A DNA stretch of 64,000 nt from Sphingomonas rubra. GTDB taxonomy: Bacteria; Pseudomonadota; Alphaproteobacteria; Sphingomonadales; Sphingomonadaceae. Under the pieces are notes generated by a model. The model did no database searches. It had not been told where the DNA came from and saw nothing but the letters and a program-made list of their open reading frames with translations. Of this stretch, positions 27,362 through 52,227 are shown one piece after another (the stretch's first letter is position 1; each line of letters begins with the position of its first letter). The stretch is taken from positions 124,001-188,000 of the forward strand of contig NZ_FOXP01000007.1 in assembly GCF_900115745.1 (NCBI RefSeq), in the 5' to 3' direction. Both the position numbers and the translations under genes were made by a program.

Positions 27362-27384
27362 AAAATGCCGATTGTCGATCCGTC

Positions 27385-27675: not shown

Positions 27676-27691
27676 GACGTCCTCCTGACGT

Positions 27692-27721: not shown

Positions 27722-27730
27722 TGTTCAAGC

Positions 27731-28255: not shown

Positions 28256-28333
28256 GGTGCTTCTCCTACGTATCTGTTTGATATCGTAGCCGTTAAACGG
28301 ATCGTTTTCCCGATCGTTCCGGTTGCCGCCGCG

Positions 28334-29643: not shown

Positions 29644-29650
29644 TTCACCC

Positions 29651-30460: not shown

Positions 30461-30464
30461 TCCT

Positions 30465-32824: not shown

Positions 32825-32901
<77 letters not shown>

Positions 32902-33584: not shown

Positions 33585-34001
33585 ATGCTTGCACGGCAAC
33601 CGAAGAGAGAGGACCTGCAGAAGGCGATAAAGGTTGCACGCCGTGATCGCGCCGAGCGCTTGCTCACGCGCGAGATTAGCTGGTCGCCGGACGGAACGGT
33701 TGAGTTGGTGCTCACCCGTGAGTTCATGGTCCCGGATGACGCCGGCGTCTACTTAATCCACGACCTTCGCGGCATCCTCTACGTCGGGCAGTCTCGCAAG
33801 CTCCGGCAGCGCTTCGCCCAGCACGATCGCCTGCGCCGCAACCGGCTGCTGCATCTCGCGATGAGCCGCCCTGTCGGCATCATGCGCTTCAGCTGGCGCC
33901 TCGTCGCCGACGAAGAAGAACGCTCCGCCTTCGAGCGCGAGCTCGTCGCCACCCTCCAGCCGGTCTGCAACCGGCAGCTGCTCGACACCCCCCTTACCTG
34001 A
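33585..34001 (+). CDS. GIY-YIG nuclease domain protein (left module)
   Basis: 138 aa. A basic helical N-terminus (residues 1-30) is followed by a complete GIY-YIG domain: GVY at 54-56, YVG at 66-68, the catalytic Arg in RKLRQRFAQH (71-80) and the metal-binding Glu in ERELVATLQPVCN (about 117-129). All key residues are present, so nuclease activity is expected. It starts the first island transcription unit and ends 14 bp before the DGQHR gene. The same gene pair recurs in mirror orientation at 44268-47207. A weak ribosome-binding site leaves the exact start uncertain. Confidence 0.8.
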   Translation: MLARQPKREDLQKAIKVARRDRAERLLTREISWSPDGTVELVLTREFMVPDDAGVYLIHDLRGILYVGQSRKLRQRFAQHDRLRRNRLLHLAMSRPVGIMRFSWRLVADEEERSAFERELVATLQPVCNRQLLDTPLT

Positions 34002-34015
34002 AAAGGAGAAGACTC

Positions 34016-35373: not shown

Positions 35374-35757
35374 ATGAGCGCTTCTCAAAAACTCTTCCTG
35401 ATGGTCGACGAGCCGCACAGCTACGCGCAGCTCGTAAGCGGGCCTGATGCGTTCGCCGCCGTTGAAGGCCATTACACCACGCTCGACGCCTGGTGTTCGC
35501 CGTCGCCCGACGCCGACATTAGCGAGGAGTTCCTGCTCTTCCTCTATGAAGTTCCCGCTCACTTGGCGGACGATCTGAGCGAGCGTTTCGAAGATCTTGA
35601 CGGGGACGAACTGGCCAATCAAGTCTCTGTATTCACCCGCGAAAACCCGAGCGTTGCGCCCGTCGAGGTCAACGTCACCTACACCGCCGTCGAGGGTGCG
35701 AAAGCGTCAAAGCTGCCCGCTTTCCCGGACCTCTTCAGCGGCCGCCGCGAGGACTGA
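35374..35757 (+). CDS. Small strongly acidic protein of unknown function
   Basis: 127 aa from ATG 35374 (GGAG upstream). It has 24 Asp/Glu against 7 Lys/Arg, no membrane segment, and is predicted alpha/beta. No family is recognised. It follows the left DGQHR gene on the same strand, and its 3' end overlaps the 3' end of sspA (opposite strand) by 51 bp. Its charge would suit a DNA-mimic or a modulator of a DNA-binding partner, but this is speculation. Confidence 0.65.
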   Translation: MSASQKLFLMVDEPHSYAQLVSGPDAFAAVEGHYTTLDAWCSPSPDADISEEFLLFLYEVPAHLADDLSERFEDLDGDELANQVSVFTRENPSVAPVEVNVTYTAVEGAKASKLPAFPDLFSGRRED

Positions 35758-36882
35758 GGCCGCTGCGGTCACCTCCTCCTCGCGTGTCAGGCGACCGAGG
35801 CTGAGGCGGATGGATTCGGCGGCTTGGGTCCCGCTCAGGCCCATCGCGATCAGCACGTGCGACGGTTCGGTCGTGCCCGAGGTGCAGGCCGATCCAGTGG
35901 CGGCGGCGAGCTTGGGGCGAGCCGCAGCGAGCAGAAGCTCGGCATCGATCCCTGGGACACGGATGTTCAAGTTCCCCGGGTGCCGCCCGATCAGCGTTCC
36001 ATTGACTTCCAGATTCGGGATCGCGGCGCGGAGCTGTTCCAACAGCCGGTCGCGAAGACAATGCGTTCGCTCGATCTCGGCTTCGCGCTCGTCCGACAGG
36101 ATTTGGCAGGCGGCGCCGAAACCGACGCACAAGGGTGTGGGCAAGGTGCCGGGCCGCAGACCGTCTTCCTGACCGCCGCCAAACATGATCGATCGCAGCT
36201 GCGGTCGCCGTTCTCGACGCACATAGAGCGCGCCAATGCCTTTTGGCCCATAGGCCTTGTGCGCCGATAAGGAGAGAAAATCGACGTTCCAGCGATCCAC
36301 GTCGATGCCCTTGACCGCGAGGGCCTGCGCGGCGTCTGAGTGGAACAGCGCGCCGGCGGCGCGGCAGAGCTCACCGACCTGCGTCACCGGCTGTGCAACC
36401 CCGGTCTCGTTGTTCACGGCCATGACCGACACTATCGCCGTGTCCTGTCCGATCAGCCGGGCAAGTTCGCCGAGGTCGATCGTGCCGTCGGCGAGCACAG
36501 GCGCGACGCGCAGCGTGAACCCGTCGTCCATAAGGGCGCGGCCGACAGCGAGTACGCATTTATGCTCGATCGCGGAGACGACGATCTCGCGGCGAGACGA
36601 CGGAGCCCCGCGCATGGCACCGAGCAGCGCAAGATTGTTGGCTTCGGTCGCGCCGGAGGTAAAGATCACCTCATCCGAATCGGCGCCGATCAGGGTAGCA
36701 ACCTGATCACGCGCCCGGTTGATCGCCGCGTCTGCGTCCCAACCATAGGCATGGTCTGCGGCATGTGGGTTACCAAGGCCGGCCGCGCCTTCGAAGAAGG
36801 GGCGCATCACGGCGAAGACCCGCGGATCAAGCGGAGTGGACGCCTGATAGTCCATGTAGACGCCGTGCGTCCCTCCACTCAT
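35707..36882 (-). CDS. sspA: Cysteine desulfurase of the phosphorothioation system (SspA/DndA-like)
   Basis: 391 aa from ATG 36882 (GGAGAG at good spacing; a GTG four codons upstream is possible). Fold-type I PLP enzyme: YMDYQASTPLDPRV, SGATEANNLALLG, PLP-binding Lys in SLSAHKAYGPKG and the mobile catalytic Cys in ATGSACTSGTTEPSHVL. It would take sulfur from Cys and pass it to the SspD-like protein. Divergent from sspBCD across a 92-bp region with twin palindromes, an arrangement like dndA/dndBCDE. The location, not the sequence alone, separates it from housekeeping IscS. Confidence 0.88.
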   Translation of the reverse strand: MSGGTHGVYMDYQASTPLDPRVFAVMRPFFEGAAGLGNPHAADHAYGWDADAAINRARDQVATLIGADSDEVIFTSGATEANNLALLGAMRGAPSSRREIVVSAIEHKCVLAVGRALMDDGFTLRVAPVLADGTIDLGELARLIGQDTAIVSVMAVNNETGVAQPVTQVGELCRAAGALFHSDAAQALAVKGIDVDRWNVDFLSLSAHKAYGPKGIGALYVRRERRPQLRSIMFGGGQEDGLRPGTLPTPLCVGFGAACQILSDEREAEIERTHCLRDRLLEQLRAAIPNLEVNGTLIGRHPGNLNIRVPGIDAELLLAAARPKLAAATGSACTSGTTEPSHVLIAMGLSGTQAAESIRLSLGRLTREEEVTAAASVLAAAAEEVRESGQL

Positions 36883-36912
36883 CGCACTCTCCACCGCTCG
36901 TCTGAACTCGCC

Positions 36913-36931
36913 ACTGGCGCATACCGCCAGT
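36913..36931. promoter_or_regulatory. Operator-like palindrome 1 (ACTGGCG-N5-CGCCAGT)
   Basis: Perfect 7-bp inverted repeat with a 5-bp spacer in the divergent sspA/sspB promoter region. It has the same architecture as the palindrome at 36946-36964; centres are 33 bp apart, close to three helical turns, so the two sites face the same side. A candidate binding site for a repressor of the writer genes, for example a DGQHR protein. Confidence 0.7.
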
Positions 36932-36945
36932 CCCCGCTATGATCC

Positions 36946-36964
36946 ACTGGTGTTATTCACCAGT
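36946..36964. promoter_or_regulatory. Operator-like palindrome 2 (ACTGGTG-N5-CACCAGT)
   Basis: Perfect 7-bp inverted repeat with a 5-bp spacer, 10 bp upstream of the sspB ATG. It differs from palindrome 1 by one compensated base pair (ACTGGYG / CRCCAGT). Occupancy here would block sspB initiation directly. Confidence 0.7.
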
Positions 36965-36974
36965 AAGGCCTTTT

Positions 36975-37976
36975 ATGGCACGCAGTCTACTCGATGATGG
37001 TCGATTCCGCCTGCAGTTCGCAGGTCATGAAACATTTCCGCTGCGCTACGGCTGGTTGAAGAAGTCCTTTGATGCGGTTGTGGCCGCAGAAGCGGCCGGT
37101 CAGATAGATACCCGCTCTATCTTTACAGATGATGCGGCGATTGCGAACTTCGGCGTCGGCAAGAACATGGTTACGTCGATGCGACATTGGTCGCTCGCGT
37201 CTGGAATTTTGCAGATAAGTAACGATGACGACCTGTCGTCCTCTGGTGGGCAATTTCAGCCGACAGCGCTCGGCCGACTACTATTTGGCGACTCGGGCGA
37301 CCCCTATCTGGAGCGCCCGGCATCGCTTTGGCTGCTCCATTGGCATTTGGCCGCCACGCCCGGTCGGGCGACGACATGGTATTGGGCGTTTAACGAATTG
37401 AACGAGCCTACGTTCACGCGAGACGTCGTGCGAACCCGGCTCGGCCGCCGCTGCAATGAGCTTCGCGACGATGGTCGGCTCAAGACGTCGCGCATCACCG
37501 AATCGACGCTGAAGAGCGATGTCCTGTGTTTCATTCGAACCTACGCTGTGAAGTCTGACGGCCGGTCTACGCAAGAGGACGCCCTAGAATGTCCGCTGAC
37601 CGAGCTTGGGCTCGTGCAATCGGTCGACATCGGCTCGGCGTTCCAGTTCCGGCGCGGACCGAAGTCGACCCTACCCGACGAGGTGTTCCTCTATGGCCTG
37701 CTCCGGTTCTGGCGAGGCCTGTACCCGACACGTCGCGAGTTCACCGTCGAGGCCGTGACCCATGAACCGGGCTCGCCGGGCCGGGTCTTCCTCTTGGATG
37801 AAGAGACCGTCGCCGAGCGGCTCGCGCGCCTGTCTGACCTAACGCGCGGCGCGGTGCGCTGGGATGAGTCGACCGGGATGCGGCAGGTTTATGCCGCTGA
37901 CGTGATGACGCTCGAGCCGTTGGCCTTCGTCGAGCGGCTGTATCGCCGCGCTCGCCCGGAGGCGAAAGCGGCATGA
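36975..37976 (+). CDS. sspB: DUF4007 protein, SspB-like DNA phosphorothioation component
   Basis: 333 aa from ATG 36975. The DUF4007 signature opens the protein (LQFAGHETFPLRYGWLKKSFDAV), followed by FGVGKNMVTSMRHW and a helical C-terminal half. SspB is the DUF4007 nicking component of the single-strand phosphorothioation system SspABCD; nicking at the modified site is known for that family, not shown here. The stop overlaps the sspC-like start as ATGA. An ATG 12 codons upstream exists but would run through palindrome 2. Confidence 0.8.
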   Translation: MARSLLDDGRFRLQFAGHETFPLRYGWLKKSFDAVVAAEAAGQIDTRSIFTDDAAIANFGVGKNMVTSMRHWSLASGILQISNDDDLSSSGGQFQPTALGRLLFGDSGDPYLERPASLWLLHWHLAATPGRATTWYWAFNELNEPTFTRDVVRTRLGRRCNELRDDGRLKTSRITESTLKSDVLCFIRTYAVKSDGRSTQEDALECPLTELGLVQSVDIGSAFQFRRGPKSTLPDEVFLYGLLRFWRGLYPTRREFTVEAVTHEPGSPGRVFLLDEETVAERLARLSDLTRGAVRWDESTGMRQVYAADVMTLEPLAFVERLYRRARPEAKAA

Positions 37977-40900
37977 CGAAGACCCTTGATAGCCTCGTCC
38001 ATGTCCGGCGGCGGTTCCAGCGTTCGATCCGGGTCGACACCGATATTGGCGCTGCAGCCCTCGAAGGGTTTGTGTGCCCGCAGAGCGTGGGCGAGTCGCT
38101 GCTATCGATGGCGCGTCAGATTGAGGAGACAGGTCAGGGCGCCTTCACTTGGACGGGGCCGTACGGCTGCGGCAAGTCCAGTTTGGCGGTGGCCGTAGCG
38201 GCCTTGCTTTGCGAGCCGTCTCTCAAGATGCAGGCGCGTGCCGCGCTAGGGCGGGACGTCGCCAGTGCCTTGGAACGGCAACTCGATCCGGAAGCGCTCG
38301 GATGGACGGTGTTGCCGGTTGTTGGCAGCCGAGCCGACGCGGCCAAGATGGTCGGTACGGCGCTTGATCAAGCGCTGGCGATCAAGCGGACGCGTGGTCG
38401 CCCGAGTAAGGCCGAGGCCGATGTAATCTCGCGCCTGCTCGAGACAGCGAATCGGCCCGGGAGCGCAGGAACGTTGCTTGTCATCGACGAAATGGGCAAG
38501 TTCCTGGAGGAGGCGGCCTACGGCGCCGCGGACGTCTACTTTTTCCAGCAGCTCGCCGAAGCGGCCAACCGCAGCCAAGGACGGCTGATCGTGGTCGGTG
38601 TGCTGCACCAAGCCTTCGACGACTATGCCCATCGGCTCGGCCGCGAGATTCGCGACGAGTGGCTGAAGATTCAGGGCCGCTTCGCTGACGTTCCGATCAA
38701 CGTCGCGGGTGAGGAGCAGGTCGAGCTTATCGCCCGCGCTATCGAGGCGGAGAGCGGGCCTAGGACGAGTGCAGCGCAGGCGGAGGCGATTGCTGAGGCG
38801 ATTCGAGCACAGCGTCCAGCGACCGCCGCCGATCTCGGCGAGCGTCTTCATCAATGCTGGCCCTTGCACCCGGTCGTAGCGACCCTCCTTGGCCCGCTAT
38901 CGCGACGGCGGTTCGGGCAGAATCAGAGAAGCGTCTTCGGCTTCTTGAACTCTGCCGAGCCGTTCGGCTTCCAAGAGTATTTGAAGTCCGAGCCGGTGCT
39001 CGACGCGGCCGCCTACGGATCGACCCATCTTTGGGATTACCTCCGGGCAAATTTGGAGCCGTCGATCCTTGCCTCGCCGGACGGCCATCGCTGGTCGCTC
39101 GCTGTCGACGCAGTCGAGCGGAGCGAAGGGCGCGGGGCTGAGCCTGACCATATAGCGATCGTGAAAGCGGTCGCGCTGATCGACATGTTCAAGGAACGAT
39201 CCGGGCTGCTGGCTAGCGGCGCGGTCCTCGCGGAGGCGCTGCCGGACATCGAAGCCGGCCGACTGGAGCGATGCCTCGACGATCTGCAGACCTGGTCGGT
39301 CGTCCTTTACCGACGCCATGCCGGCGCGTTCGCGATCTATGCTGGAAGCGACTTCGACATTGATGCGGCGGTCGCCGAGGTACGCACACGGCTGCCAGTG
39401 ATTGACCTGGCGCGCCTGCGCACTCTGGCGCTGCTGCAGCCGGTGCTTGCAAAGCGGCACTACCATGTAACGGGTGCGTTGCGGTGGTTCGAAGTCGATA
39501 TTGCGGCCCTCGCGGATGGCGCTGAGCGCGTGCGACAGTTTCGCCCGCAGTCCGGCGCGACCGGCCTGTTTCTGCTTCTCATCGGGACCGAGGCCGAGAC
39601 GGACGCCAAGGCCAAGAAGCTCTGGAAGGCCGCGGCGGGTGCGGCTGAACGCTGGCCAGCTGCCGTCGGGTGGACCCGTGATAGCTTCATGATCCGCGAA
39701 CTTGCAGCGGAGCTGCTGGCGCTGGAAGCGGTGCGTGCTGAGCGGTCGGAACTGCAAGGCGACGCCGTTGCTCGCCGCGAGGTGTCCGCTCGCATCGCCC
39801 GCCTCGCGGCCGAGGTCGAGGATCGGCTCAACCAGGCGTTCGATGGTGCGCAATGGGCGTGGCAGGATCTTCAGTCCGAAGAGCTTGTCACCTCCGAAGG
39901 CGGGGCGACGCTCAACGCCATCGCCTCAGATCTGGCAGACCAGCGTTACAAGCTCGGGCCCAAGCTCAAGAACGAGCTTCTAAACCGCATCAAACCCTCG
40001 TCCAATGCCATCGCCGCGCAGAAGGAGTTGCTCAAGGCGATGGTAGAGCGCTGGCAGGCGCCGCGCCTTGGCATCGAAGGGTACCCCGCGTCACGCGGAC
40101 TCTACGACTCGCTCCTGGAAGCGACCGGGCTCCATCAGGTCTCCACAGACGATCCCACTCGGTACGTGTTCGGCGATCCGTTAGCGGGCGGCGACTACAA
40201 TCTCGCACCGCTGTGGGCGGCGGCAGAGACGCTGTTCCAAGACGCCGGCGCATTGGGCGCGGACCTCTCGACGCTCTATGCCGGGTGGCGCAAGCCCCCC
40301 TACGGCGTGCGCGACGGCCTGCTGCCCGTGCTTGCGATCGCGTATCTGATGTCGCGCGCCGGACGCCTCGCCGTTTATCTCGACGGCGCGTTTCAGCCTC
40401 GTATCGGGTCAATTTTGATCGACCGGCTCGCACAGGACCCGGCAAGCGTGCGCCTTCGCTGGACTGAAGCAAGCGACTTCCATGTCCGCGTGCTCTCCGG
40501 CGTGGCGGAACTCGTGGCCGATTTCGGTGCGATCCCGGCCGGCCAGACGCATCCCGAGCCGATCGATGTCGCCCGTGGGCTGGTCGGCCTGGTGCTCGAG
40601 CTACCGGCCTGGGTTCTCCGGACGGGCAGGCTGTCGCCGGTCGCGACGAAGGTCCGGAACCTCGCAAAGCTTGCGAGCGACCCGAACAAGTTCTTGCTGG
40701 ACGACCTACCCTCCATATTCGGCGCTGACGATCGGACCGCCGAAGAGGCTGTCACCGTGGTCGGGTCGCTACAGGACGGTCTGCGAGAGCTAGTCGGCGC
40801 TTATCCGCTGCTGCTGCGCGAGCTCGAAGCGGTGCTGTTGCGCGAACTGCGGCTGGGAGAGCTGACCGAGAAGGTCCGCGCTGACCTACAAGCGCGAGCT

Positions 40901-41401
40901 GCCGCCGTTCGGGGCCTGACGGGCAACTACCGGTTGGATGCATTCGCGACCCGCCTTCAGACTTACAGCAGCGAACTGGAAGAAATCGAGGGCTTCGCGA
41001 GCTTGGCCGCGAATAAGCCGCCCCGGGATTGGGTCGATCGCGACATCGATCATGCGCGGGTCGAGATTGCCGCGCTTGCGCAGGAGTTCGTCCGCGCCGA
41101 GGCTTTCGCGCATGTGAAAGGTCGCGAGGACGGCCGGGTGCGGATGGCAATCTTCATCAGCGACCCGAGCCGCCCGTCTCCACTCCGTCCCGACTTCGAC
41201 ATCACTTCAGGGCAGCAGCGCGAAGTGCGCGAGTTGGCAGGGCAGCTTGAGAGCCTGCTTGAGACCGCCGGGGCCAGCCGGGACGTGGCGCTGGCCGCCC
41301 TAGCGGAGCTTGGAGCGCGGTTGAGCGAGCCTGACCCGCAGCCGGCTCTGCCGCTGGAGGTTCCGATGGCAGCCGGGAAACGGAAGGGAGCGATGCGATG
41401 A
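37973..41401 (+). CDS. sspC: Large P-loop ATPase, SspC-like
   Basis: 1142 aa. Walker A GPYGCGKSS at 62-70; Walker B LLVIDEMGK at about 168-176. A long helical remainder contains a further conserved region at about 690-760 (SRGLYDSLLEATGLHQVS, VFGDPLAGGDYNLAPLW). No nuclease motif seen. In the Ssp system this ATPase works with SspB and SspD to install sulfur. It overlaps both neighbours by ATGA, so sspB, sspC and sspD are translated as one coupled unit. Confidence 0.78.
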   Translation: MTKTLDSLVHVRRRFQRSIRVDTDIGAAALEGFVCPQSVGESLLSMARQIEETGQGAFTWTGPYGCGKSSLAVAVAALLCEPSLKMQARAALGRDVASALERQLDPEALGWTVLPVVGSRADAAKMVGTALDQALAIKRTRGRPSKAEADVISRLLETANRPGSAGTLLVIDEMGKFLEEAAYGAADVYFFQQLAEAANRSQGRLIVVGVLHQAFDDYAHRLGREIRDEWLKIQGRFADVPINVAGEEQVELIARAIEAESGPRTSAAQAEAIAEAIRAQRPATAADLGERLHQCWPLHPVVATLLGPLSRRRFGQNQRSVFGFLNSAEPFGFQEYLKSEPVLDAAAYGSTHLWDYLRANLEPSILASPDGHRWSLAVDAVERSEGRGAEPDHIAIVKAVALIDMFKERSGLLASGAVLAEALPDIEAGRLERCLDDLQTWSVVLYRRHAGAFAIYAGSDFDIDAAVAEVRTRLPVIDLARLRTLALLQPVLAKRHYHVTGALRWFEVDIAALADGAERVRQFRPQSGATGLFLLLIGTEAETDAKAKKLWKAAAGAAERWPAAVGWTRDSFMIRELAAELLALEAVRAERSELQGDAVARREVSARIARLAAEVEDRLNQAFDGAQWAWQDLQSEELVTSEGGATLNAIASDLADQRYKLGPKLKNELLNRIKPSSNAIAAQKELLKAMVERWQAPRLGIEGYPASRGLYDSLLEATGLHQVSTDDPTRYVFGDPLAGGDYNLAPLWAAAETLFQDAGALGADLSTLYAGWRKPPYGVRDGLLPVLAIAYLMSRAGRLAVYLDGAFQPRIGSILIDRLAQDPASVRLRWTEASDFHVRVLSGVAELVADFGAIPAGQTHPEPIDVARGLVGLVLELPAWVLRTGRLSPVATKVRNLAKLASDPNKFLLDDLPSIFGADDRTAEEAVTVVGSLQDGLRELVGAYPLLLRELEAVLLRELRLGELTEKVRADLQARAAAVRGLTGNYRLDAFATRLQTYSSELEEIEGFASLAANKPPRDWVDRDIDHARVEIAALAQEFVRAEAFAHVKGREDGRVRMAIFISDPSRPSPLRPDFDITSGQQREVRELAGQLESLLETAGASRDVALAALAELGARLSEPDPQPALPLEVPMAAGKRKGAMR

Positions 41402-42237
41402 GCGAAGTGAAGGTCCGGCACGTTCTCGGCCTGTCCGGCGGACGCGACAGCGCCGCCTTAGCGGTCTTCATGCGCCAGCATCACCCCGAGATCGAGTTGG
41501 AGTACTTCTTCACCGACACGGGCAAGGAGCTGCCCGAAGTTTACGAGTATCTCGTCTCGCTCGAAGGCTTCCTCGGCAAGCCGATCCAGCGGCTCAATCC
41601 CGACCGCACGTTCGACTTCTGGCTGACGCAATACAAGAGCTTTTTACCGTCGCCGAAAACGCGTTGGTGCACGCGTCAGCTCAAGATCCGTCCTTTCGAG
41701 CAATGGCTGCGACCAGACCTGGAGGCCGGTGTCACGATCGTCAGCTACGTGGCGATCCGGGGCGATGAGGACTACCGCGAAGGCTATGCATCGACCCATC
41801 CCAACCTGTCGGTGCGGCTGCCGTTTCGTGAGGAGGGGATCGACAAGGAGGGCGTCATCGAGATCCTAGAGGCCTCTGGGGTCGGTCTGCCGAACTACTA
41901 TCGGTGGCGGTCGCGCAGCGGATGCACGTTCTGCTTCTTCCAGCAGAAGATCGAATGGGTGCGGTTGATGGACGAGCACCCCGAGGCCTTCGAAGAAGCA
42001 AAGGCTTACGAGAAGAATGCGGTCGAGCATGGCTCGCCGTTCACCTGGAGCCAGGGCGAGAGCCTCGACGCGCTGAGCCGTCCTGAGCGGATCGCTCAGA
42101 TCCGCGAGGATCATGAACGGCGCGTCGCGCGCCTTCGCGAGCGGCAGCCGATCAATCCGCTCCGGGCAGAGCCCGAGCCGCTCGATATCGATGTGGTCTA
42201 CGGGTCGTCGAAGGTCTGCCTGGCTTGCCATAAATAG
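41398..42237 (+). CDS. sspD: PAPS-reductase-type ATP pyrophosphatase, SspD/DndC-like sulfurtransferase
   Basis: 279 aa. The PP-loop is LGLSGGRDSAALAVF at the N-terminus. Cysteines are clustered in WCTRQLK, GCTFCFFQQ and the C-terminal CLACHK, enough to hold an iron-sulfur cluster as in DndC. It activates the DNA backbone and receives sulfur from the desulfurase. The last gene of the coupled sspBCD run; the next gene begins 12 bp later, so read-through is likely. Confidence 0.85.
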   Translation: MSEVKVRHVLGLSGGRDSAALAVFMRQHHPEIELEYFFTDTGKELPEVYEYLVSLEGFLGKPIQRLNPDRTFDFWLTQYKSFLPSPKTRWCTRQLKIRPFEQWLRPDLEAGVTIVSYVAIRGDEDYREGYASTHPNLSVRLPFREEGIDKEGVIEILEASGVGLPNYYRWRSRSGCTFCFFQQKIEWVRLMDEHPEAFEEAKAYEKNAVEHGSPFTWSQGESLDALSRPERIAQIREDHERRVARLRERQPINPLRAEPEPLDIDVVYGSSKVCLACHK

Positions 42238-42249
42238 GAGCGAGCGCGC

Positions 42250-43176
42250 GTGAGCGATGTCAGTCCTTGGGATGATCTAGTCACATCAGTGCGGGCGCGC
42301 CGGTCCCGGGACGCACCATTCTTCAAGCCGGCTTGCCTGATCGCCGTCGTTGATCTGATCGGCGAGGGCGTCATCGACCCAGCCGCCATGGACGCGGAGC
42401 GGATTGTCGAACGTGTCGATAAGCTGATTGAGAGCGTGCACACGGGTCGCCCCGACATGCGGTGGCGTCCAGTCTGGCACCTGTCCAACGACAGGGCCTG
42501 GGTCTTTACCAAGAGTGGACGCCAAATCGGGCCCGAGGACTTCGAGCCTGCGCGCAAGCCTGACAGTTTGCGGGAATGGCGGGCGAGTTTCGACCACCTA
42601 GCGGTCCCGGCGGACATGCTGGAGCGTTGGCGATCGCCGATGCATCGTGCGACCCTGCGCCGGGCTGCGCTTGCGATGCTGGAAACGGGCGACGCCGCAT
42701 GCCGGAGCTTGGCCTTGGACCTGGCCGATGGGGTCACGGCGAGCACCGAGGCTGAGCAGCCTTCCCACGGCGGGCAAGGCTTTTCGGCGGACAGCGTCGT
42801 GCGGCGCGCCATCGAACTCCACGCGATGGAGCTGACCCGAGCGTGGCTCGAGGAGAAGGGCTGGACAGTCGATGACCGCTCGGCTTCGGAAAGCTACGAT
42901 TTCCTATGCAAGCGTGATGGTGCGACCTTGTTTGTCGAGGTGAAGGGCACCACGGGGGACGGCCGCCTCATCCAACTCACCCGCCTTGAGGCGGAGTTCG
43001 CACTCGCTCATCAAGCCGACATGGCTCTGGCGGTCGTCGCGGGCATCCGAGTCACGCGCACTGAGCGGAAGATTAAAGCTTCTGGCGGCGTGCTTTTGGT
43101 GCGGCAGCCTTGGGCGCCTGCGCTCGGCAGCCTCCGGCCGATCAGCTATACCTGCCAGCTGGAGGGCGTCGCATGA
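42250..43176 (+). CDS. DUF3883 protein with N-terminal sulfur-binding-domain-like region
   Basis: 308 aa from GTG 42250 (TAGGAGCGAG upstream). The N-terminal 150 residues show the pattern of ScoMcrA-like phosphorothioate-binding domains: a FFKPACLIAVVDLIGEG helix (24-40), PVWHLSNDRAW (74-84) and a final helical RSP-LRRAALAML segment. The C-terminal part is DUF3883 with ESYDFLCKRDGATLFVEVKGT (214-234), whose Asp and Glu-Val-Lys resemble a PD-(D/E)XK nuclease core. This would make it a reader-plus-nuclease effector. Family assignment of the N-terminus is by eye and needs profile search. It overlaps the next gene by ATGA. Confidence 0.7.
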   Translation: MSDVSPWDDLVTSVRARRSRDAPFFKPACLIAVVDLIGEGVIDPAAMDAERIVERVDKLIESVHTGRPDMRWRPVWHLSNDRAWVFTKSGRQIGPEDFEPARKPDSLREWRASFDHLAVPADMLERWRSPMHRATLRRAALAMLETGDAACRSLALDLADGVTASTEAEQPSHGGQGFSADSVVRRAIELHAMELTRAWLEEKGWTVDDRSASESYDFLCKRDGATLFVEVKGTTGDGRLIQLTRLEAEFALAHQADMALAVVAGIRVTRTERKIKASGGVLLVRQPWAPALGSLRPISYTCQLEGVA

Positions 43177-44267: not shown

Positions 44268-46562
44268 TCAGGCGACCTGATCGTCCTCCATTTCGGGATC
44301 CGCTTCCGTCGAGGCGGTGGCTGGCACTTGCGACAGGGCCTCGCGCATGGCTCTCCGATCCAGAGCGTCGGCGCCGATGTTTTTAATAAGGCCCGAGTAG
44401 GTGTCGAACGCTTGGCCAAAGATGGCCTTACGCTCATCCTTGGACAACTCGTCCTTTGCCTTCTGAGTCTCGCGACAAAATGCTGTTTCATAATGATCGT
44501 GAAGGGCAGCGAAGACTTCCGCGCGGCACTCGGATCGCTCTTCGGCCACGATCGACTGCAGGCCCGGATGCGTCGGGTGCCAGATCTCGAGGAGAAGGTA
44601 GCGATACTTCGGCCACTGGTCAGGCTGCATCTCAGCCCGGTAAACAACGCTCCGGAACGTTTGGTTGCTCGGGCGGACCGCCCAGACCTCCTTGTCGTCC
44701 GCTACCTCCCCGATGAAGACACGGATCAGTCGCTTGAGCTGCGTGGGCGACCGCGGCACGAAAAACTGATTTAGCTGCGTCACGTACTCGTCAAACGCCT
44801 GGTCACGGTCGATCGGCGGTTGATCCCCAAAGTCGCCTTTCTTGAGCTTACGCTCGGCCTTTTCGACCAGTCCGAGGAAGCCGCAGACGAGCGCGGTTTG
44901 GAAGGCGACCGTAGTGAAGAGTTCGTCGTACAGGCGGTTGCACCAATCCACCATCTTCGGGTGGATCGCGCCGTCTTCGCCGCGCACAAGTTTTTTGTCG
45001 GAGAGGTCACCGAACAAGCGAGCGGCGCGATCCCGCCGAAGCCGAGTCACAGTGTCCTCTATGCGCGTCGCGGTTGCGTCGAGACGCCGCGAGCTCGCCT
45101 CGATCTCTGGAACGTCGGTTCGGAAATAGCCGTTCCTCAGCCGCTGTCGGAGGCTTGTCCGGTGAGCCTCAAACACGCGGCCGATCCCCTGTCCCTCGAG
45201 CAGGATGGGTTTGAGTTGCCGGTCCTGTTCCCGCTCTAGCTGCTCACCCATCTCGATGACGGCGCGGTTGTGGCGATCGAATGGGGCGAAGCGTTCCAAT
45301 GCGCCGATCACATAGGTGCCGTAGCGGCTGTCGAACTGGGTCGCTAGCTTCTCGGCCGCGGCGGCAGTGAAGAGATCCCGGCGGATTGTGTCAGCCGTTC
45401 CGGCGCCGAGCAGGTTGCGTCCATCTAGCCTTGCAAGGAGATCGTCGAGCCGCGTGCGGTTGTAGAATGTGCCTGCGCGAGGTTTGACGCCCCGTACGGT
45501 GCCCCCGTTGTCGAGCATCATATGCTCCGTCATGTAGTAGATATGGGGCACGCCAGTGATGGCCACCGGTGTCTGGATCTTCTGTCGGCTGCCTTCCTGG
45601 TCGAGCTCGACGTTGGCGATGCGCAGCGCGTGCGGCGAGCGGGCGTCGCGTTCCTTTATGTGGGACAGCGTGCGACGCATTAAGAAGCTGATAAGGTCAT
45701 TGTCATCAAGCAGCTTGTTGCGGGCGTCTGAGACCTGTCGCGCCGTCTTGTTCAAGGTCAGGAAGATCGAGCGCGCAGCTTTTTTCATGTCGAAGTCGCC
45801 GGTGTAGACGGTGTCGAGCTCGGGGATCGTGCAGAGCAGGACGGGCAGGTTGATCTCATTGAGGTTGAACCGCTCGATGTAGTTCTTGGTCCAGGCCGAG
45901 TAATATTCCTTAAAGGGGGCGCGGCGCTCGTCGGACCATTGGTCCTTCAAATTTCGGTAGATCGCGAGCAGCGCCATGGCCCGGTGCTGGCCGTCGACGA
46001 TTACCAGTCGCGTGCGGTGGGTGTTGAGCTTCAGGCGGACTAGGTCGCTTGTGAGAGGCCGTCCGTCGTCGATAGGCTGCTCGAATTGGAAAACTTCGCT
46101 GCCGACACTTCCCGATCGCGTCGACAAAACCGGATGCTCCCGATCCCCCTCCGGTTCGAGTGTCTCGACCGAGACTTCAGGATAGAAGCTTTCTGGCTGT
46201 GTGCGCCCTTCGCGGATCGGCATGACCACGATTACAATCGGCGGGAAGAGCTTGATCATGTCCTTCGATTGCTCATCGAGCAGATAGGGCACCAGCTCAG
46301 CCGAGACGCGCGCGTCGTCGATGTCGCGCTGCATAATCTCGTCGAAGTCAAGGGTCTGGAAGTCGAAGATTTCACGAACCGGAGCAAGGGCGCTCAGCAG
46401 CTTGTCGTTCGACGAGGTAGAGAAGTTCAGCCCAACATGAGTGAGAAGATACTTTACCTCCAGCGACCGCGAGCCCCCGCTCCCGGCGCCCACGCGAAAC
46501 GAGCCAACCGTTCCTTCGAGAGTAAGGTCTAGGGCGGTCTCTCGACGCAGGCGTAGCGCCAT
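44268..46562 (-). CDS. Large DGQHR domain protein (right module)
   Basis: 764 aa, much longer than the left copy (432). The motif VIVDGQHRAMALL lies at 188-200, followed by IFLTLNKTARQVSDARNKLLDDND, which parallels the left copy's IFNTVNRYAKQTS block. The C-terminal 400 residues are mostly helical and unassigned; no HNH or other nuclease motif seen. It may be the nucleotide-hydrolysing sensor that SspE's DUF262 domain provides elsewhere. It lies 3 bp after the right GIY-YIG gene. Confidence 0.78.
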   Translation of the reverse strand: MALRLRRETALDLTLEGTVGSFRVGAGSGGSRSLEVKYLLTHVGLNFSTSSNDKLLSALAPVREIFDFQTLDFDEIMQRDIDDARVSAELVPYLLDEQSKDMIKLFPPIVIVVMPIREGRTQPESFYPEVSVETLEPEGDREHPVLSTRSGSVGSEVFQFEQPIDDGRPLTSDLVRLKLNTHRTRLVIVDGQHRAMALLAIYRNLKDQWSDERRAPFKEYYSAWTKNYIERFNLNEINLPVLLCTIPELDTVYTGDFDMKKAARSIFLTLNKTARQVSDARNKLLDDNDLISFLMRRTLSHIKERDARSPHALRIANVELDQEGSRQKIQTPVAITGVPHIYYMTEHMMLDNGGTVRGVKPRAGTFYNRTRLDDLLARLDGRNLLGAGTADTIRRDLFTAAAAEKLATQFDSRYGTYVIGALERFAPFDRHNRAVIEMGEQLEREQDRQLKPILLEGQGIGRVFEAHRTSLRQRLRNGYFRTDVPEIEASSRRLDATATRIEDTVTRLRRDRAARLFGDLSDKKLVRGEDGAIHPKMVDWCNRLYDELFTTVAFQTALVCGFLGLVEKAERKLKKGDFGDQPPIDRDQAFDEYVTQLNQFFVPRSPTQLKRLIRVFIGEVADDKEVWAVRPSNQTFRSVVYRAEMQPDQWPKYRYLLLEIWHPTHPGLQSIVAEERSECRAEVFAALHDHYETAFCRETQKAKDELSKDERKAIFGQAFDTYSGLIKNIGADALDRRAMREALSQVPATASTEADPEMEDDQVA

Positions 46563-46565
46563 ACT

Positions 46566-47207
46566 TCAGTTCCTTCCAAGAAGGGGATAATGGATACGAT
46601 TCAGGATATTCTCTATGTCGACGTATGTCCCGGGCGGCCCAGCGATCACAGTCGCTACTACAAATAATCGGGACGGCGGGATACTCCGCGCCCGTACTTC
46701 CTTCGCGAAGCTGTGATCGCGCTGATCCTCTTCGGAGGCGCCGGGATCGGGGAGCTCGCCGTATTTCTCGATGAGCGCCTTGTGCTGGCCCAGTCGGGTG
46801 CGCAGTCGCTCCGACATGCCGATGTAGATCGGAGAAGCAGAATTCGGAGCTGAGGCTTCGAGGACGGTTCGTATCGTCGCGAGGCGAGCGGGCTCCTCGA
46901 CGATCCGTTCCAACAGCGACTCGGAGAGGGTCGGGCGGTGCTCGATCTGGCCTTCGTAGCGGGGCTTGAGCGGCCCGCGAAGCTGGGCCGAATAGGGTTG
47001 CTCACGGAAGTAGCGGAAGACCGTCTCGTCGAGGAAATCTCGAACAGCGTCTTTAGCGGCGGAGGTCCCTCGGCCCGCTTTCAGCTCAAGAATGTCCGAC
47101 GTGATCCGGTCGAGATCGAAGGCGGTGATCTCCGGAGTGTAGTACCAAGCGTATACGCCTGGCGCGAACGGCACGTCGCCGATGTCATGCCAGTTGTAAA
47201 TCGCCAT
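46566..47207 (-). CDS. GIY-YIG nuclease-like protein with long insertion (right module)
   Basis: 213 aa. GVY at 17-19 and YIG at 128-130 are separated by about 108 residues instead of the usual 10 or so. The rest of the domain follows normally: RLRTRLGQHK (Arg and His, 134-143) and a C-terminal IENILNRIHYPLLGRN with the catalytic Glu (199). It is thus a GIY-YIG fold carrying a large helical insert after the first strand. First gene of the right module, mirror partner of 33585-34001. The 407 bp upstream (47208-47614) hold no gene I can support. Confidence 0.72.
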   Translation of the reverse strand: MAIYNWHDIGDVPFAPGVYAWYYTPEITAFDLDRITSDILELKAGRGTSAAKDAVRDFLDETVFRYFREQPYSAQLRGPLKPRYEGQIEHRPTLSESLLERIVEEPARLATIRTVLEASAPNSASPIYIGMSERLRTRLGQHKALIEKYGELPDPGASEEDQRDHSFAKEVRARSIPPSRLFVVATVIAGPPGTYVDIENILNRIHYPLLGRN

Positions 47208-47614: not shown

Positions 47615-49192
47615 TCACCCCTCGTCTTCAGCAACCATGCGTAACAGGCTCCGCAGGCGACGGCTGGCCTCAGCGTCACCACCAGGCCTAGGGCATAGAA
47701 GCATGCAGTCGCTGGCTCCGGGGAGCGTTGCCAGTTCCAACCAATGGTCAGCAGGCGGGGGAAACAGGACGAATCCTCCCATCGGGTGACATCTGACAAT
47801 CTGGTCCCCAGCGGCCCACCCGATCGTCCTCCTGTAGCGCTCGACCGTGTAAGGCTTGGTATCGTTCTTAGACCGCCTACCGTGGTGGCCCGGACTGGCG
47901 AGGCAGGCGTCCCCAACCAGGAGCGACCTGCCGCGTGGCGTAGTGATACGAATGAGGTAGTCGGGCGAGCACTTCTCCTCGGTCCCGACGAAAGGGCGTC
48001 CCGCATCCAGTTCCTGATTGTGCGCGACCCATTCCAATGCGGAAATAGCCCGATCATGGGCCGGCGGCAGCTTGCTGTAGTCGACCAAAACCGGTTCAGC
48101 CTCGAAATCCAATTCGATCGTGGACGTCCCCTTCTCGAGTCGCCATTGGCAGCGCTCGATCGTCTCCCCGCCCTCGATGGAGCAAGCGCCGGAAAAGCCG
48201 AGCGTCCTGAACTCGTTGACTAGCCAGATTGCTCCCCAGAGTTCCCAGAGGTTGTTGAGGAACACCGGAGGGTAGTGCGACCTCGCGGACTCGAACTCGG
48301 TCATTGCGTCGGACGGCGACGCCGCGAAGGCTCGCAGGAGCAGCCGCAGCCGGTAATCGCGCTGAAGCAGGGGACCCGGATGGACTTGGACACTAAGTTC
48401 TTCAGCGAGCACGAACCCTGCCAGCAAGCTCTTCAACTCGCTCAGGCGAGCCAGCGTCGCACTGAGTCGCCTCGCTTCCCCTTCGATATTCTCCTGTCGC
48501 GCGCCCGGGTTTGATCGGGCGGCTCTCGCCGTGGCAGCAGTGAGTGCCACGGCGACTTCCCCGCGATGATCGCTAAGTTGGGTCGCTCTGCGGGCGGCCC
48601 ATAATGACACCAACGCATTCTCCGGAAGGGGTACGTGCATCCTTGAGCGGGGAGCGAGCTCGACAAACGGCTCACGGCGGATCGAATGTGCGGCGAGCAT
48701 TTCCTCCCCCACGAGGCGGATCGTCTCGGACGGCATGCTCGGCCGCAGCGCATCGCGCGGACGGCTCCAGGTCCGGTCGGGCCGTTGTGCGAGGACGTCC
48801 CACGCCCCGGGGAGACCCAGTTCGGCTTCGACATCCTCGGCCATCGAGACTACGTCACCGTAGCCTAGCAGCGCCGTTGGCACGACGTAGCAGCGAAGCA
48901 CGCCTCTCGGGTTCTTCAGCTCGGCGGTGAGTTCACCGGCGCGCCGCTTTCTCGCCAGCAACTCGGCCAGATCCCAACGCTGCCATTGGGTCCCATCTTC
49001 GCAAGGGTCGGTCAGCTTCGGCAGCTTGGCATCCCCAGCGAGCTGCGCGGGATAACCGCGGGTCAGGATGTCAAGGAACGGCTGATCGTCGCGGATCTGG
49101 AACCAGAGGTCAGGGTTCCAATCGTAGACGATGTGGGAGCCGTCCGCCTCCGCAACCCGAACAGCCTCTATGGTCGTCCTCGTCACTGCCAC
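47615..49192 (-). CDS. McrC/DUF2357-like protein with altered nuclease motif
   Basis: 525 aa. The N-terminal beta-rich half is followed by LWELWGAIWLVNEFRTLGF (315-333), typical of DUF2357/McrC-like proteins. A PD-(D/E)XK-like core lies at SPDYLIRITTPRGRSLLVGDACLAS (409-433), where the expected DAK is DAC, so the catalytic Lys is missing. KPYTVERYRRTIGWA continues the family pattern. It starts inside the 3' end of the AAA+ gene (10-bp overlap), a standard mcrB-mcrC arrangement. Either inactive, using a migrated Lys (SKND, 441-444), or a scaffold. Confidence 0.68.
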   Translation of the reverse strand: MAVTRTTIEAVRVAEADGSHIVYDWNPDLWFQIRDDQPFLDILTRGYPAQLAGDAKLPKLTDPCEDGTQWQRWDLAELLARKRRAGELTAELKNPRGVLRCYVVPTALLGYGDVVSMAEDVEAELGLPGAWDVLAQRPDRTWSRPRDALRPSMPSETIRLVGEEMLAAHSIRREPFVELAPRSRMHVPLPENALVSLWAARRATQLSDHRGEVAVALTAATARAARSNPGARQENIEGEARRLSATLARLSELKSLLAGFVLAEELSVQVHPGPLLQRDYRLRLLLRAFAASPSDAMTEFESARSHYPPVFLNNLWELWGAIWLVNEFRTLGFSGACSIEGGETIERCQWRLEKGTSTIELDFEAEPVLVDYSKLPPAHDRAISALEWVAHNQELDAGRPFVGTEEKCSPDYLIRITTPRGRSLLVGDACLASPGHHGRRSKNDTKPYTVERYRRTIGWAAGDQIVRCHPMGGFVLFPPPADHWLELATLPGASDCMLLCPRPGGDAEASRRLRSLLRMVAEDEG

Positions 49193-52100
49193 GGCGATAC
49201 GAAGCCGAGCCGCTCCTGGTGACGGGCGAGCTTGAGGCGATGCCGGGTGCGGGGCAGCTCCTCAAGATTGCCCACCACCTCCTCAAGCGACTTCAAGGCG
49301 GGCCTAAGCTGGTCATAGGCGCCAGAAAGCTTAACGAGCACGCGGCTCGCGATGAGGCGATCCACCAAGTCGTCGCGGTTCAGAAGGCCTCTTCCCTGCA
49401 GGTCAAGTCGGTGGTGAAGCGCGAGCATGGCCCGCAGATCGTGGAGCACGCGTCGGGAGGGGAGTAGGTCCTGGCGCAGATCATGCCTGTGAACCGCCTC
49501 GCTCAACGCACCGAGAACGCTAGCCAGACCTTCGTTCGAGCTGTTGCCCCCGGCTATCGCAGCAGGGAGACCTGGAAGCTGGGGGAGGTCGCCGGCCGAA
49601 GAACGGGCGGGCAGCTCATCGGCGTCGTGAGCCACCTGCGAAAGTTCGAGGAGGAAGCAGCGATCGATGACCTTCGGGGAGGGAGGGCGGGAAGAATCGT
49701 CGATGTTCATGGTACCGAAAACCCTGCTTGGAGGCAGTGGCTGACCGTCGAAGAGTTCGCCTGCCTCGCTCTCAAGGGAGTGGAACAGGCGCGACATGTA
49801 GTATTCGGGTCGCGTCAGGTTAAACTCGTCGAAAAGTATGAGATGAGCCTCCCCCGGTCGGTCCAGAAGAGACTTGAGCCTACCGTCGCGGCCAAAGAGG
49901 TGACCGTCGTCCGCCCAGTGCGCCTGAACGGGAACGTCATGGAAACTCTGCCCCGGACGCTTGCCGAGGAGGCGCGCGATAAGCCGCACCAAGCTAGACT
50001 TGCCGCACCCTGGTGGCCCGGCCAGTAGCACGACAGGGCGGACTGATAAGGCGAGCAATGCCACGACGATGTCGTCGAAAGCTTCTCGCGGCAGCTCATT
50101 CATAACTTCGCGGGTGGCTGCCAGCGCATTCGAAAACTCAGCGTCCGGCACACTCGGACCCCAACCTGTGTTCTGCGTCGAACTCAGCGAAGATGCCGCG
50201 TCCGCAGTCGGCAATCCGCTCGAGGGTTCTTCGACGGCGTCCGGGCCTGAAAAGACTGGCGCATCCGCGACGACCGCATGCTCGCCCGGGTGGTCGTCGT
50301 CGGTGCCGGTGAGCTCGCTTCGAATTGGTGCCTGGCCCGGATGGCCTAGCACCTCAATGTCCGCAACCACACCATCCATCAGACCGCCCAAGTCGTTCGG
50401 CGTGTCAACGTCGCCCAGGAGATTGGACAGCGAGGCACGATCGCCCTCGCGCACGACCCGTTCCAGCTCGCTCGTCGAAATCCAGCCACTTTCCGCGGTG
50501 ACGGCGACGATCTTGGACATGCCCAGGTCTAGGACCACGTCCTCGGCGGCGTCCACTGCAAGCGCGCCTGAGGGCACTGTGGCGTGGAACGGCTTGGGCG
50601 TCGCCTCCTCCCGCGTTCGCAGAGTGCCTACGTCAATCCAGAGGCGGCTCGTTCCAGTGACTTCCGTCGAGGATACTGTCGCGCGCTCTTTGATCGGGTC
50701 CCACGCAAGGTCCATTCGACCCGGCGCCCGTTGCACGTGCAGGCTCTGGTGGCCTCGACCCCGACGCGCCTCCACTCCGGCCGACGGTCCGGGAACGAGC
50801 CTCGCCTTCAGCTGGTCGCCCTGCGCGAAGGGCGGCAGGCTGCCTATCGGGCGCTTGCCCCCGTCGTCCACGAATGGGTCGTTGGGATCGAGCAGCGTGA
50901 AGTGGCGTTCGCGGCTCGTGGGATCCTTGATCCCGAGCAGGAGGGGGTGCTGCAAAGTCGCCTGGAGAGGGGCATCGAAGGTCTCGCTCCGCTGTCCGGC
51001 CTGTTCACGGAGGCGCGGCGGCGAGTAATTGTGAAGGATGTGAGCAAGCCCGCCAGCCGCGGCTGCGACGGCGAATGACTCGCCAACACGAAGGACTTGC
51101 GGCCGGCGGCCGTCCAGGAACAGGGTCGCCAGCATCGCCTCTTCGAAGCCGGGCAGCATGCTGGTCCCGCCAGCAAGGAGGACCGCGTCGATAAGACGGT
51201 GTGAATCGGCCGGTCCTTCAACCTCGCGTTCCTGAAAACGCACCTCGCTGCTGCGACGGGCGGCCTCGGACGAGACCTGATTGTCGTACAGGCGCTCACA
51301 CAGCTTCTCGAATACCGGGCGCAACTCCATCCAGAGCTCGGTCGACAGCGCTTCGAGCAGGGTACGGTCAATTACGAGCGCCGCGCCGTCCTGGGTACTT
51401 TGGACGTCTCCTGAGCTTGCCCGGACCTTCGCGCTCTCGATTTCGCGAAGCGACGAGTCAAGCGTGTCCCGCCCAAGCATCTCGGCAAGCCGCTTGTCGA
51501 TCCACCGGCCCGCGTGGTCGTCGCTGTCCCCTCGAAGTGCGCGGAGCCGCAGATCGCGCTGGGCGCCCGTGGCGTCGACGCCGACCATTGTCCGGTCGCG
51601 CCGACTCACTATGATCGTCATATTCGCGGTCGAAGCGCCGACGTCGACCACCAAGATGACGTTGTTGTGGCCAGCCTCGAGCGAGAGATTGCGTTTCAGT
51701 AGCCGAAAGTATTCCGCGACCATCTCAGGCTCGGGCAGGATCACCACGCCTGGGATAGCCGCCTCGACCGCGTCTCTGTACCGGATCCTTGTCTTGTCGT
51801 CCGCGATGGAGGGCATGAGCGCGTATTTGCGGCGCGCCTGCATGGCAGCGGGCAGCCTCGCCAACACCTGCCGAAGATACTCTCGGAACACCTCGTCGCG
51901 TTCAAGATCTCGGAAGGGCGTGCGCGGATCCGTTTTGTCGTAGATGATTTGCCGCTTGGTCTTTCCATGCAGCATCCAATCCTTGACGTCGTCGATTTGC
52001 TCGAACCAGGCGCCTTCGTCTGGGGCGTCGAGCTGCAGCGTCCATTGCTTGCGGTTCGTGATCGAAGGATCAGCGACGACGTAACATCGAGAAGGCTGGA

Positions 52101-52227
52101 ATGGCCGGCCCCCCTCCTGAAGAAGGAAGCGGAAAGCGCCTTCGCTCATCTCAAGCTGCCTTCCGATGCTCGCCTGGCTTCGATCCGATCGGCGCAGCGG
52201 GTGCGCAAAACCGTGAGTCAGAGCCAC
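49183..52227 (-). CDS. Hsp70/actin-like ATPase fused to McrB-type AAA+ GTPase
   Basis: 1014 aa. An Hsp70-like nucleotide-binding domain covers about 130-400: phosphate-1 motif VVDVGASTANMTIIV (193-207) and adenosine motif VLLAGGTSMLPGFEEAML (349-366). A beta-rich, Hsp70-substrate-like region and linker follow (400-690). The C-terminus is an McrB-type AAA+ module: Walker A LLAGPPGCGKSSL (734-746), Walker B LILFDEFNLTRPEYY (796-810), sensor GTMNIDDSS (838-846) and Arg finger KVIDR. A chaperone-like sensor coupled to a restriction motor is unusual. First gene of a two-gene operon with the McrC-like gene. Confidence 0.82.
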   Translation of the reverse strand: MALTHGFAHPLRRSDRSQASIGRQLEMSEGAFRFLLQEGGRPFQPSRCYVVADPSITNRKQWTLQLDAPDEGAWFEQIDDVKDWMLHGKTKRQIIYDKTDPRTPFRDLERDEVFREYLRQVLARLPAAMQARRKYALMPSIADDKTRIRYRDAVEAAIPGVVILPEPEMVAEYFRLLKRNLSLEAGHNNVILVVDVGASTANMTIIVSRRDRTMVGVDATGAQRDLRLRALRGDSDDHAGRWIDKRLAEMLGRDTLDSSLREIESAKVRASSGDVQSTQDGAALVIDRTLLEALSTELWMELRPVFEKLCERLYDNQVSSEAARRSSEVRFQEREVEGPADSHRLIDAVLLAGGTSMLPGFEEAMLATLFLDGRRPQVLRVGESFAVAAAAGGLAHILHNYSPPRLREQAGQRSETFDAPLQATLQHPLLLGIKDPTSRERHFTLLDPNDPFVDDGGKRPIGSLPPFAQGDQLKARLVPGPSAGVEARRGRGHQSLHVQRAPGRMDLAWDPIKERATVSSTEVTGTSRLWIDVGTLRTREEATPKPFHATVPSGALAVDAAEDVVLDLGMSKIVAVTAESGWISTSELERVVREGDRASLSNLLGDVDTPNDLGGLMDGVVADIEVLGHPGQAPIRSELTGTDDDHPGEHAVVADAPVFSGPDAVEEPSSGLPTADAASSLSSTQNTGWGPSVPDAEFSNALAATREVMNELPREAFDDIVVALLALSVRPVVLLAGPPGCGKSSLVRLIARLLGKRPGQSFHDVPVQAHWADDGHLFGRDGRLKSLLDRPGEAHLILFDEFNLTRPEYYMSRLFHSLESEAGELFDGQPLPPSRVFGTMNIDDSSRPPSPKVIDRCFLLELSQVAHDADELPARSSAGDLPQLPGLPAAIAGGNSSNEGLASVLGALSEAVHRHDLRQDLLPSRRVLHDLRAMLALHHRLDLQGRGLLNRDDLVDRLIASRVLVKLSGAYDQLRPALKSLEEVVGNLEELPRTRHRLKLARHQERLGFVSPWQ

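Follow-up and report, generated by a model that had tools for sequence, protein, structure and literature searches.

An Hsp70/actin-type ATPase domain with a displaced phosphate-1 motif fused to an NxD McrB motor in a two-gene McrBC-like system of Sphingomonas rubra

We describe a gene pair found in a 64,000-nucleotide stretch of Sphingomonas rubra DNA (contig NZ_FOXP01000007.1, positions 124,001 to 188,000; hereafter the window). Its first gene fuses an Hsp70/actin-type ATPase domain to an McrB-type AAA+ motor, and its second encodes an McrC-type partner. As the two genes occur together in all seven loci of the family and no other tested gene is common to these loci, we conclude that the pair by itself forms the core of an McrBC-like system, carried amid changing defence genes. 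With moderate confidence we read it as a ligand-gated defence module of the NxD branch of McrBC-type systems, in which a permuted Hsp70-like ATPase-motor fusion would act with a lysine-less McrC-type partner and produce its output without McrC cutting. The new element is a phosphate-1 motif that is complete but displaced, of which we found no description in the literature.

The preliminary description of this DNA, made from the letters alone, had noted a frame of 1014 aa at 49183-52227 that contains an Hsp70-like and an McrB-like domain. This open reading frame (ORF) is present, on the minus strand, and contains all five of the motifs then listed (DVGAST, LAGGTSM, GPPGCGKSS, LILFDEFN and GTMNIDD). 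They are kept in all seven family members, the last as [GA]T[ML]N[IV]D[DE]. Translation probably starts at the ATG at 52149 (ORF residue 27), which gives a protein of 988 aa, since the relatives align from ORF residue 24-27 on and an ATG stands at the corresponding position in all six; in two of them (L003 and L004, introduced below) the ORF also opens upstream of this ATG. At a GC content of 67%, as in the window, long spurious ORFs are common. This ORF is not a product of chance, because six relatives match it over the full length with 54-61% identity. Hence, the observation of an Hsp70-like domain fused to an McrB-type motor is confirmed, with corrections to strand and start.

Three of these relatives, those of Mesorhizobium sp. 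B4-1-3 (L002), Bosea lupini (L003) and Bradyrhizobium sp. NAS96.2 (L004), come from a pattern-based scan sensitive to close relatives only. The other three are carried by plasmids of Mesorhizobium huakuii (L015), Sinorhizobium fredii GR64 (L016; two records of the strain) and Agrobacterium tumefaciens (L017). All six belong to the Hyphomicrobiales, according to records and taxonomy and, for the remainder, to general knowledge. Among 385 genomes of the window's class, only its own genome displayed a match to the fusion (E up to 1e-12), and among 398 genomes of the phylum there was one besides it. The order of this second genome yielded two matches in 397 genomes: the first is again Bosea lupini, 100% identical to L003, and the second is a fragment of about 220 residues with a stop near the contig end. 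Within the window's order, 11 of 147 genomes gave a match, ten of them to the AAA+ part only. No relatives of the fusion were found among the phage records and viral contigs searched.

By profile comparison, the N-terminal half is a nucleotide-binding domain of the Hsp70/actin superfamily. In hhalign, the seven N-terminal halves matched an Hsp70 profile with a probability of 96.4 (E 1.3e-9, score 82) and an alignment colinear over profile residues 87-373, whereas 40 column shuffles reached at most 25.5 and the reversed profile 18.6. Each of 42 PF00012-matching loci contributed its longest ORF to the Hsp70 profile; a few of these ORFs are odd or partial, and 32 sequences were left after alignment trimming. 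Taken singly, all seven members scored 28.7-50.7, compared with 13.4-21.3 for the N-terminal regions of 11 other NxD McrB relatives. The whole-half profile also matched FtsA (E 7.5e-5), PilM (6e-4) and MreB (0.083, with an alignment that included wrongly extended ORFs). In all seven members, the BeeR actin-like model (NF053558, 349 positions; best E 1.6e-8) ranked first among the NCBIfam and Pfam matches to the N-terminal half, far under the family cut-off at 25.5 of 530 bits for the window protein. Actin and PilM matches were weak and present in six of the seven, and the Pfam HSP70 model had no match in the fusion protein. In PDB sequence searches, the N-terminal half found nothing below E 0.35, and the whole protein retrieved P-loops of other AAA proteins. 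A fragment of an Hsp70 chain (6zhi) matched the linker at residues 544-649 (E 0.0065) and was not counted; this stretch is mostly unconserved in the family. Collectively, the profile score, its shuffles and the BeeR matches uphold the Hsp70/actin-type assignment of the preliminary description. Meanwhile, the conserved region that stands in the place of the Hsp70 substrate-binding domain (SBD) displayed no such likeness: residues 376-530 scored 11.5 against DnaK SBD-beta, with 60 shuffles reaching up to 19.8. The same description suggested that the domain might sense proteins, for example phage capsid or unfolded proteins; that no SBD was detected by sequence weakens the second of these versions.

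The ATP-site motifs of this superfamily run in the order phosphate-1, phosphate-2, adenosine. These motif names are used in the available part of PMC1079889. In the fusion protein, the phosphate-2 and adenosine motifs come first, and the phosphate-1 hairpin follows about 165 residues behind the rest of the domain. Blocks beginning at residue 151 and at residue 161 each fall on one stretch in Hsp70, FtsA, PilM and MreB, which we took as phosphate-2. The displaced hairpin contains LDLGMSKI, with the canonical DLGMSK, and this string is invariant in the seven members. A position-specific scoring matrix (PSSM) for phosphate-1, built from windows of 30 Hsp70, 18 FtsA, 12 MreB and 2 PilM proteins, when run over the whole protein, had its highest-scoring site at residues 536-553, or at the aligned place, in every member (scores 9.7-18.6). 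In 300 shuffled proteins the 99% level was 10.4, exceeded by six of the seven, and the maximum 12.8, exceeded by four; eleven other frames of the window (ten genes and the methyltransferase in a wrong frame) reached at most 4.6. Usable phosphate-1 windows came from 2/18 PilM, 12/20 MreB and 30/42 Hsp70-locus proteins, and left-out families scored down to 2.3 (PilM) and 4.1 (MreB), which means that the PSSM overlooks some true sites.

In a block-wise profile comparison, block 531-560 aligned at rank 3 with columns 10-24 of FtsA, the FtsA phosphate-1 (E 6.8e-4). Its matches to Hsp70 (E 0.28, rank 41) and to MreB (E 0.48, rank 57) were at noise level, yet fell on phosphate-1, and that to PilM (E 0.033, rank 8) was placed off it. 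The N-terminal 115 residues gave no phosphate-1 match to Hsp70. We discarded as a phosphate-1 candidate a match of residues 376-560 to columns 11-24 of the untrimmed Hsp70 alignment, which are gap-rich and lie before the true motif.

The displaced loop suggests a circular permutation with a complete ATP site. This would be the plainest reading of the motif order; the alternative is a degenerate N-terminal loop accompanied by an extra hairpin. Moving block 530-564 to the front and dropping residues 400-529 changed E from 1.4e-9 to 9.1e-10 and the score from 81.8 to 81.0, in an alignment to Hsp70 that does not reach the moved block, and this realignment is neutral for permutation. Tentatively, and a little short of an even call, we propose that the domain is a natural circular permutant in which phosphate-1 follows the rest and adjoins the ring linker, so that a complete and probably active ATP site would be coupled to the motor as a nucleotide-gated clutch. 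If the permutation is true, closure of the ATP site would require a segment that is anchored in the ring or in an adjacent subunit.

A conventional Hsp70 unit, with nucleotide-binding domain and SBD and a degenerate Walker A, could instead direct the system towards viral or aberrant RNA, a role that the available part of PMC11090510 (Bell et al. 2024, eLife) proposes for the Hsp70-like domains of NxD McrB fusions and CnuD proteins, describing Walker A-like motifs as degenerate and favouring RNA binding. Residues 22-40 are consistent with this: they look like strand-turn-strand, contain an invariant ADP and, in our reading, could be a degenerate phosphate-1 at the usual place. However, a canonical, invariant phosphate-1 is present elsewhere in all seven proteins, so that degeneracy is not needed; no SBD was detected, and Pfam scans of the pair gave no RNA-binding or RNase domain above cut-off. 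We consider RNA steering unlikely here. Less probable still is that the N-terminal domain polymerises on ATP as an actin-like filament-forming sensor and so clusters McrB rings, an idea compatible with the permuted, ATP-gated fusion that we prefer. The BeeR, Actin and PilM matches speak for it, as does the lysine-containing phosphate-1 motif, which scores higher against FtsA than against Hsp70; against it, of the four families compared, Hsp70 is the one that the half as a whole resembles most.

In the C-terminal motor, residues 661-988 aligned to a profile built from 12 NxD McrB relatives (E 3.3e-35), and Pfam AAA_5 was above cut-off, in agreement with the complete McrB-like AAA+ domain of the preliminary description. 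Walker A (711-718, GPPGCGK), Walker B (770-777, FDEFN) and the N-[IV]-D-[DE] motif (815-818, NIDD in the window protein) are kept in the seven members. N815 and D817 are invariant, and the next residue is D in six and E in one. NIDD alone would fit NxxD; as one relative reads NIDE, only N-x-D is invariant. The plasmid-derived McrB relatives all read NxDE (12/12), and NxD, usually with a following D or E, defines the McrB clade in the available part of Bell et al. 2024 (PMC11090510).

The second gene overlaps the fusion gene by 10 bases, and its counterparts lie directly downstream of the fusion in all seven loci, broken or truncated in two. In M. huakuii (L015 17021-18554) the frame changes just behind the PD motif, and in S. 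fredii (L016 16967-18028) the gene is truncated near an IS21 gene; two of the seven systems thus look damaged. A profile of five partners matched 11 McrC/DUF2357-type neighbours of NxD McrBs over 380 columns (hhalign E 6.5e-8, score 67.9; 40 shuffles at most 21.2). A Pfam scan of the partner returned nothing above cut-off, PF04411 (PDDEXK_7) had no match in the window's genome, and the best PDB sequence match of the partner had E 0.58. The PD of the catalytic motif is retained. At the site of the canonical lysine, all five aligned partners read DAC, DAS or DAT, and the separate L015 piece has C, while D[AS]K is found by pattern match in 9/11 McrC-type relatives (the exceptions being L131 and the short L132). 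We infer that the partner nuclease is dead or altered. K446 is invariant among partners, and could be a migrated catalytic lysine. The preliminary description, right about the fusion, mentioned neither this McrC-type gene nor the displaced phosphate-1.

McrB normally has a DNA-binding specificity domain at its N-terminus, by which its rings read DNA. GTP is the nucleotide of these rings, and McrC stimulates them; published abstracts agree on the GTPase activity and on the stimulation. In the fusion protein, the Hsp70/actin-type ATPase occupies this N-terminal place before the motor, as had been claimed from the sequence. We propose that it replaces the usual reader of modified DNA. The domain would bind ATP and a phage-induced ligand and close, and closure would license assembly of the ring, presumably a hexamer, and hydrolysis by the motor, for which GTP would be the expected nucleotide. 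Closure on ATP and ligand is the most likely trigger, because the ATP-site motifs of the superfamily are intact in the reader's place. Of the options raised in the preliminary description, ATP-gated control of the motor is therefore the one we favour, on the strength of motifs that are complete and invariant. The McrC-like partner, through its DUF2357-like activator region, would stimulate the motor. The antiphage output might be translocation or blocking on nucleic acid, or the recruitment of another nuclease, rather than McrC cutting.

Such a nuclease could be a third subunit. The GIY-YIG-like gene at 46566-47207 is the next sizeable gene downstream, on the same strand, and would supply the cutting that a partner lacking the lysine may not provide; according to the available part of PMC11090510, whenever the McrC nuclease of a coiled-coil NxD system is missing or inactive, a different nuclease is found close by. 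Nonetheless, a gap of 407 bases separates it from the pair, it was not found at the six other loci, its GIY-YIG match is weak (E 0.11), and it abuts a DndB-like gene, just like the second such pair at 33585-35314. A three-gene system is thus improbable, and the two-gene module stays our preferred reading.

The surroundings of the pair are listed in Table 1 along with its domains and motifs. The window's defence island is bordered by a tRNA-Arg gene, the end of which is not repeated directly elsewhere in the window (at least 14 bases). GIY-YIG and DndB/DGQHR genes form pairs on either side of SspABCD (33585-35314, plus strand; 44268-47207, minus strand). These pairs could be alternative phosphorothioate-linked effectors; the available part of PMC10853773 mentions nucleases of the GIY-YIG/URI type in the neighbourhood of Dnd genes. 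In the PADLOC scan of 12 window proteins, no SspE, SspF, SspG or SspH matched. Eleven other genes of the island, including the methyltransferase gene in its correct frame, had no tblastn match at any of the six other loci (8.6-14 kb on each flank).

Table 1. Features of the gene pair and of the defence island around it (positions in the window; residues of the encoded protein)
Feature	Position	Strand	Residues or length	Remark
tRNA-Arg(CCG)	32825-32901			edge of the window's defence island
Complete SspA, SspB, SspC, SspD set	35707-42237			PADLOC E 9.6e-138, 1.8e-102, 0, 8.8e-135
NOV_C-domain gene	42250-43176			after SspABCD
McrC/DUF2357 homologue, PD-(D/E)xK region without canonical lysine	47615..49192	minus	525 aa	
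Degenerate active site of the partner, PD ... GDAC	47903..47965	minus	410-411 ... 427-430	
Hsp70/actin-type ATPase - McrB-type AAA+ fusion gene	49183..52149	minus	988 aa	
McrB-type AAA+ domain with NxD motif	49186..50133	minus	673-988	
Variable linker	50170..50442	minus	570-660	family alignment
Displaced phosphate-1 hairpin EDVVLDLGMSKIVAVTAE	50491..50544	minus	536-553	PSSM and FtsA profile
Conserved region between nucleotide-binding domain and displaced phosphate-1 motif, in the Hsp70 SBD place	50545..51024	minus	376-535	
Hsp70-like nucleotide-binding domain core	51025..51900	minus	84-375	hhalign against Hsp70 profile
Adenosine motif LLAGGTS	51160..51180	minus	324-330	7/7; block-wise profile scan
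Phosphate-2 motif DVGAST	51628..51645	minus	169-174	7/7
PEPEM motif, which we take to be connect-1-like	51721..51735	minus	139-143	7/7

The complete SspABCD set, the absence of SspE-H matches and an L003 neighbour that matches PADLOC SspF (8.3e-20) could make the pair the restriction arm of a phosphorothioation system, replacing SspE or SspFGH, but this is very unlikely: within the flanks searched, linkage to SspBCD is found only in the window among the seven loci, the L003 protein also carries an MkoA/MADS-type kinase stretch and has a mad7-like neighbour, and the two DndB-like and GIY-YIG pairs flanking SspABCD are better candidates. For that L003 protein, the SspF model covers residues 780-1088, and the MkoA and mad6 models match with E 6.5e-30 and 8.7e-21.

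The defence genes near the pair change from locus to locus. PADLOC found Gabija and Mza-like genes beside the L002 pair, MADS- and MkoA-like genes (one with the SspF-like stretch) at L003, a pAgo pair at L004 and E1-E2 at L015. At L017, an S8 peptidase (region 27047-30541, with an ATP-binding protein) matches IetS (4.5e-35). Counting the SspABCD set of the window, chosen neighbours match PADLOC models at six of the seven loci; the 14 neighbours scanned outside the window had been picked for their promising look, and L016 was outside the sample. Thirteen of the 14 match at E up to 0.001, some weakly, and the HEPN-annotated protein of L017 does not.

Several points weigh against a defence module of this kind. 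The defence role is inferred from neighbours that were picked because they look like defence genes, and the genes annotated upstream of the fusion in S. fredii look metabolic. An active nuclease is not evident in the gene pair, and the downstream GIY-YIG gene was not found at the six relative loci. The Hsp70/actin fold is not confirmed by AlphaFold: models made from four-row alignments, without the plasmid relatives, are too poor, with a mean predicted local distance difference test score (pLDDT) of 35.7 for the fusion protein and 48.1 for the partner. Relatives of the fusion are very rare, and the ligand and the gating are conjecture.

In the available part of PMC11090510, the Hsp70-McrB fusions are a branch of a tree and their Hsp70 part is guessed to be a weak or dead RNA-binding ATPase. 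If the phosphate-1 loop has been overlooked through its displacement, such domains could be functional ATPases controlling a GTP-type motor, and a single protein would then use two nucleotides. The small two-gene form would provide a tractable case for the role of an Hsp70-like domain in restriction-type defence.

The preliminary description had named, as one ground for refutation, that this architecture is already described as a named defence family, and this largely applies. Hsp70-McrB fusions, which branch off deepest among the NxD McrB GTPases and may be related to CoCoNuTs, were published by Bell et al. (2024; PMC11090510), although the available part of that article gives them no system name of their own. 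The available main text mentions neither permutation nor phosphorothioation nor Ssp. In the available part of the phosphorothioation reappraisal (PMC10853773), McrB, McrC and Hsp70 go unmentioned, and that of the SspFGH paper (PMC8092258) mentions no more than a Walker A motif in one of its proteins and an end resembling FtsK in another; the PADLOC Ssp models, SspE-H included, match neither gene of the pair. Among the matches listed in our literature searches, whose coverage leaves out most subscription journals, there was nothing further on a named Hsp70-McrB system or a permuted Hsp70/actin ATPase.

Compared with other NxD McrBC pairs, the N-terminal domain sets the system apart. Plasmid pairs with a DUF2357 partner (for example L018, L019 and L139) have the same NxD AAA+ motor and downstream McrC-type gene, several with a methyltransferase gene nearby. 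Their N-terminal regions, of 153-987 aa, display Hsp70 similarity in none of 11 cases, and their partners retain DAK/DSK in 9/11. In Vibrio and Klebsiella, plasmid-borne NxD McrB relatives (L133 1974-4541, L140 1947-4466) have N-terminal regions of more than 500 aa, with no Pfam domain above cut-off before the motor. BeeR is shared as the best NCBIfam/Pfam match of the N-terminal half, but the half remains far under its cut-off.

Closer likeness is found among systems with an Hsp70-like unit. According to the available part of PMC11090510, type III CoCoNuTs (CnuD/CnuCD) also combine such a unit with an McrBC pair whose McrC lacks an active nuclease. There, the unit sits on McrC or in a separate gene, together with coiled coils, the CnuH helicase and often HEPN RNases, whereas no helicase or HEPN gene common to the seven loci was found here. 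Pfam scans of the pair gave no CnuH helicase, HEPN or OB/YTH domain of CoCoNuT types I-III above cut-off (coiled coils were not computed). The Hsp70-McrB fusions described in the same article share with ours an Hsp70-like domain fused to an NxD McrB motor, a likeness judged by motif and architecture rather than by a tree. They differ in that no SBD is detected here and that phosphate-1 is canonical but displaced, where the published Walker A-like motif, which we take as the phosphate-1 loop, is degenerate. The system is real, rare and for the most part a member of a published architecture, and its lysine-less McrC fits the other NxD systems of Bell et al.

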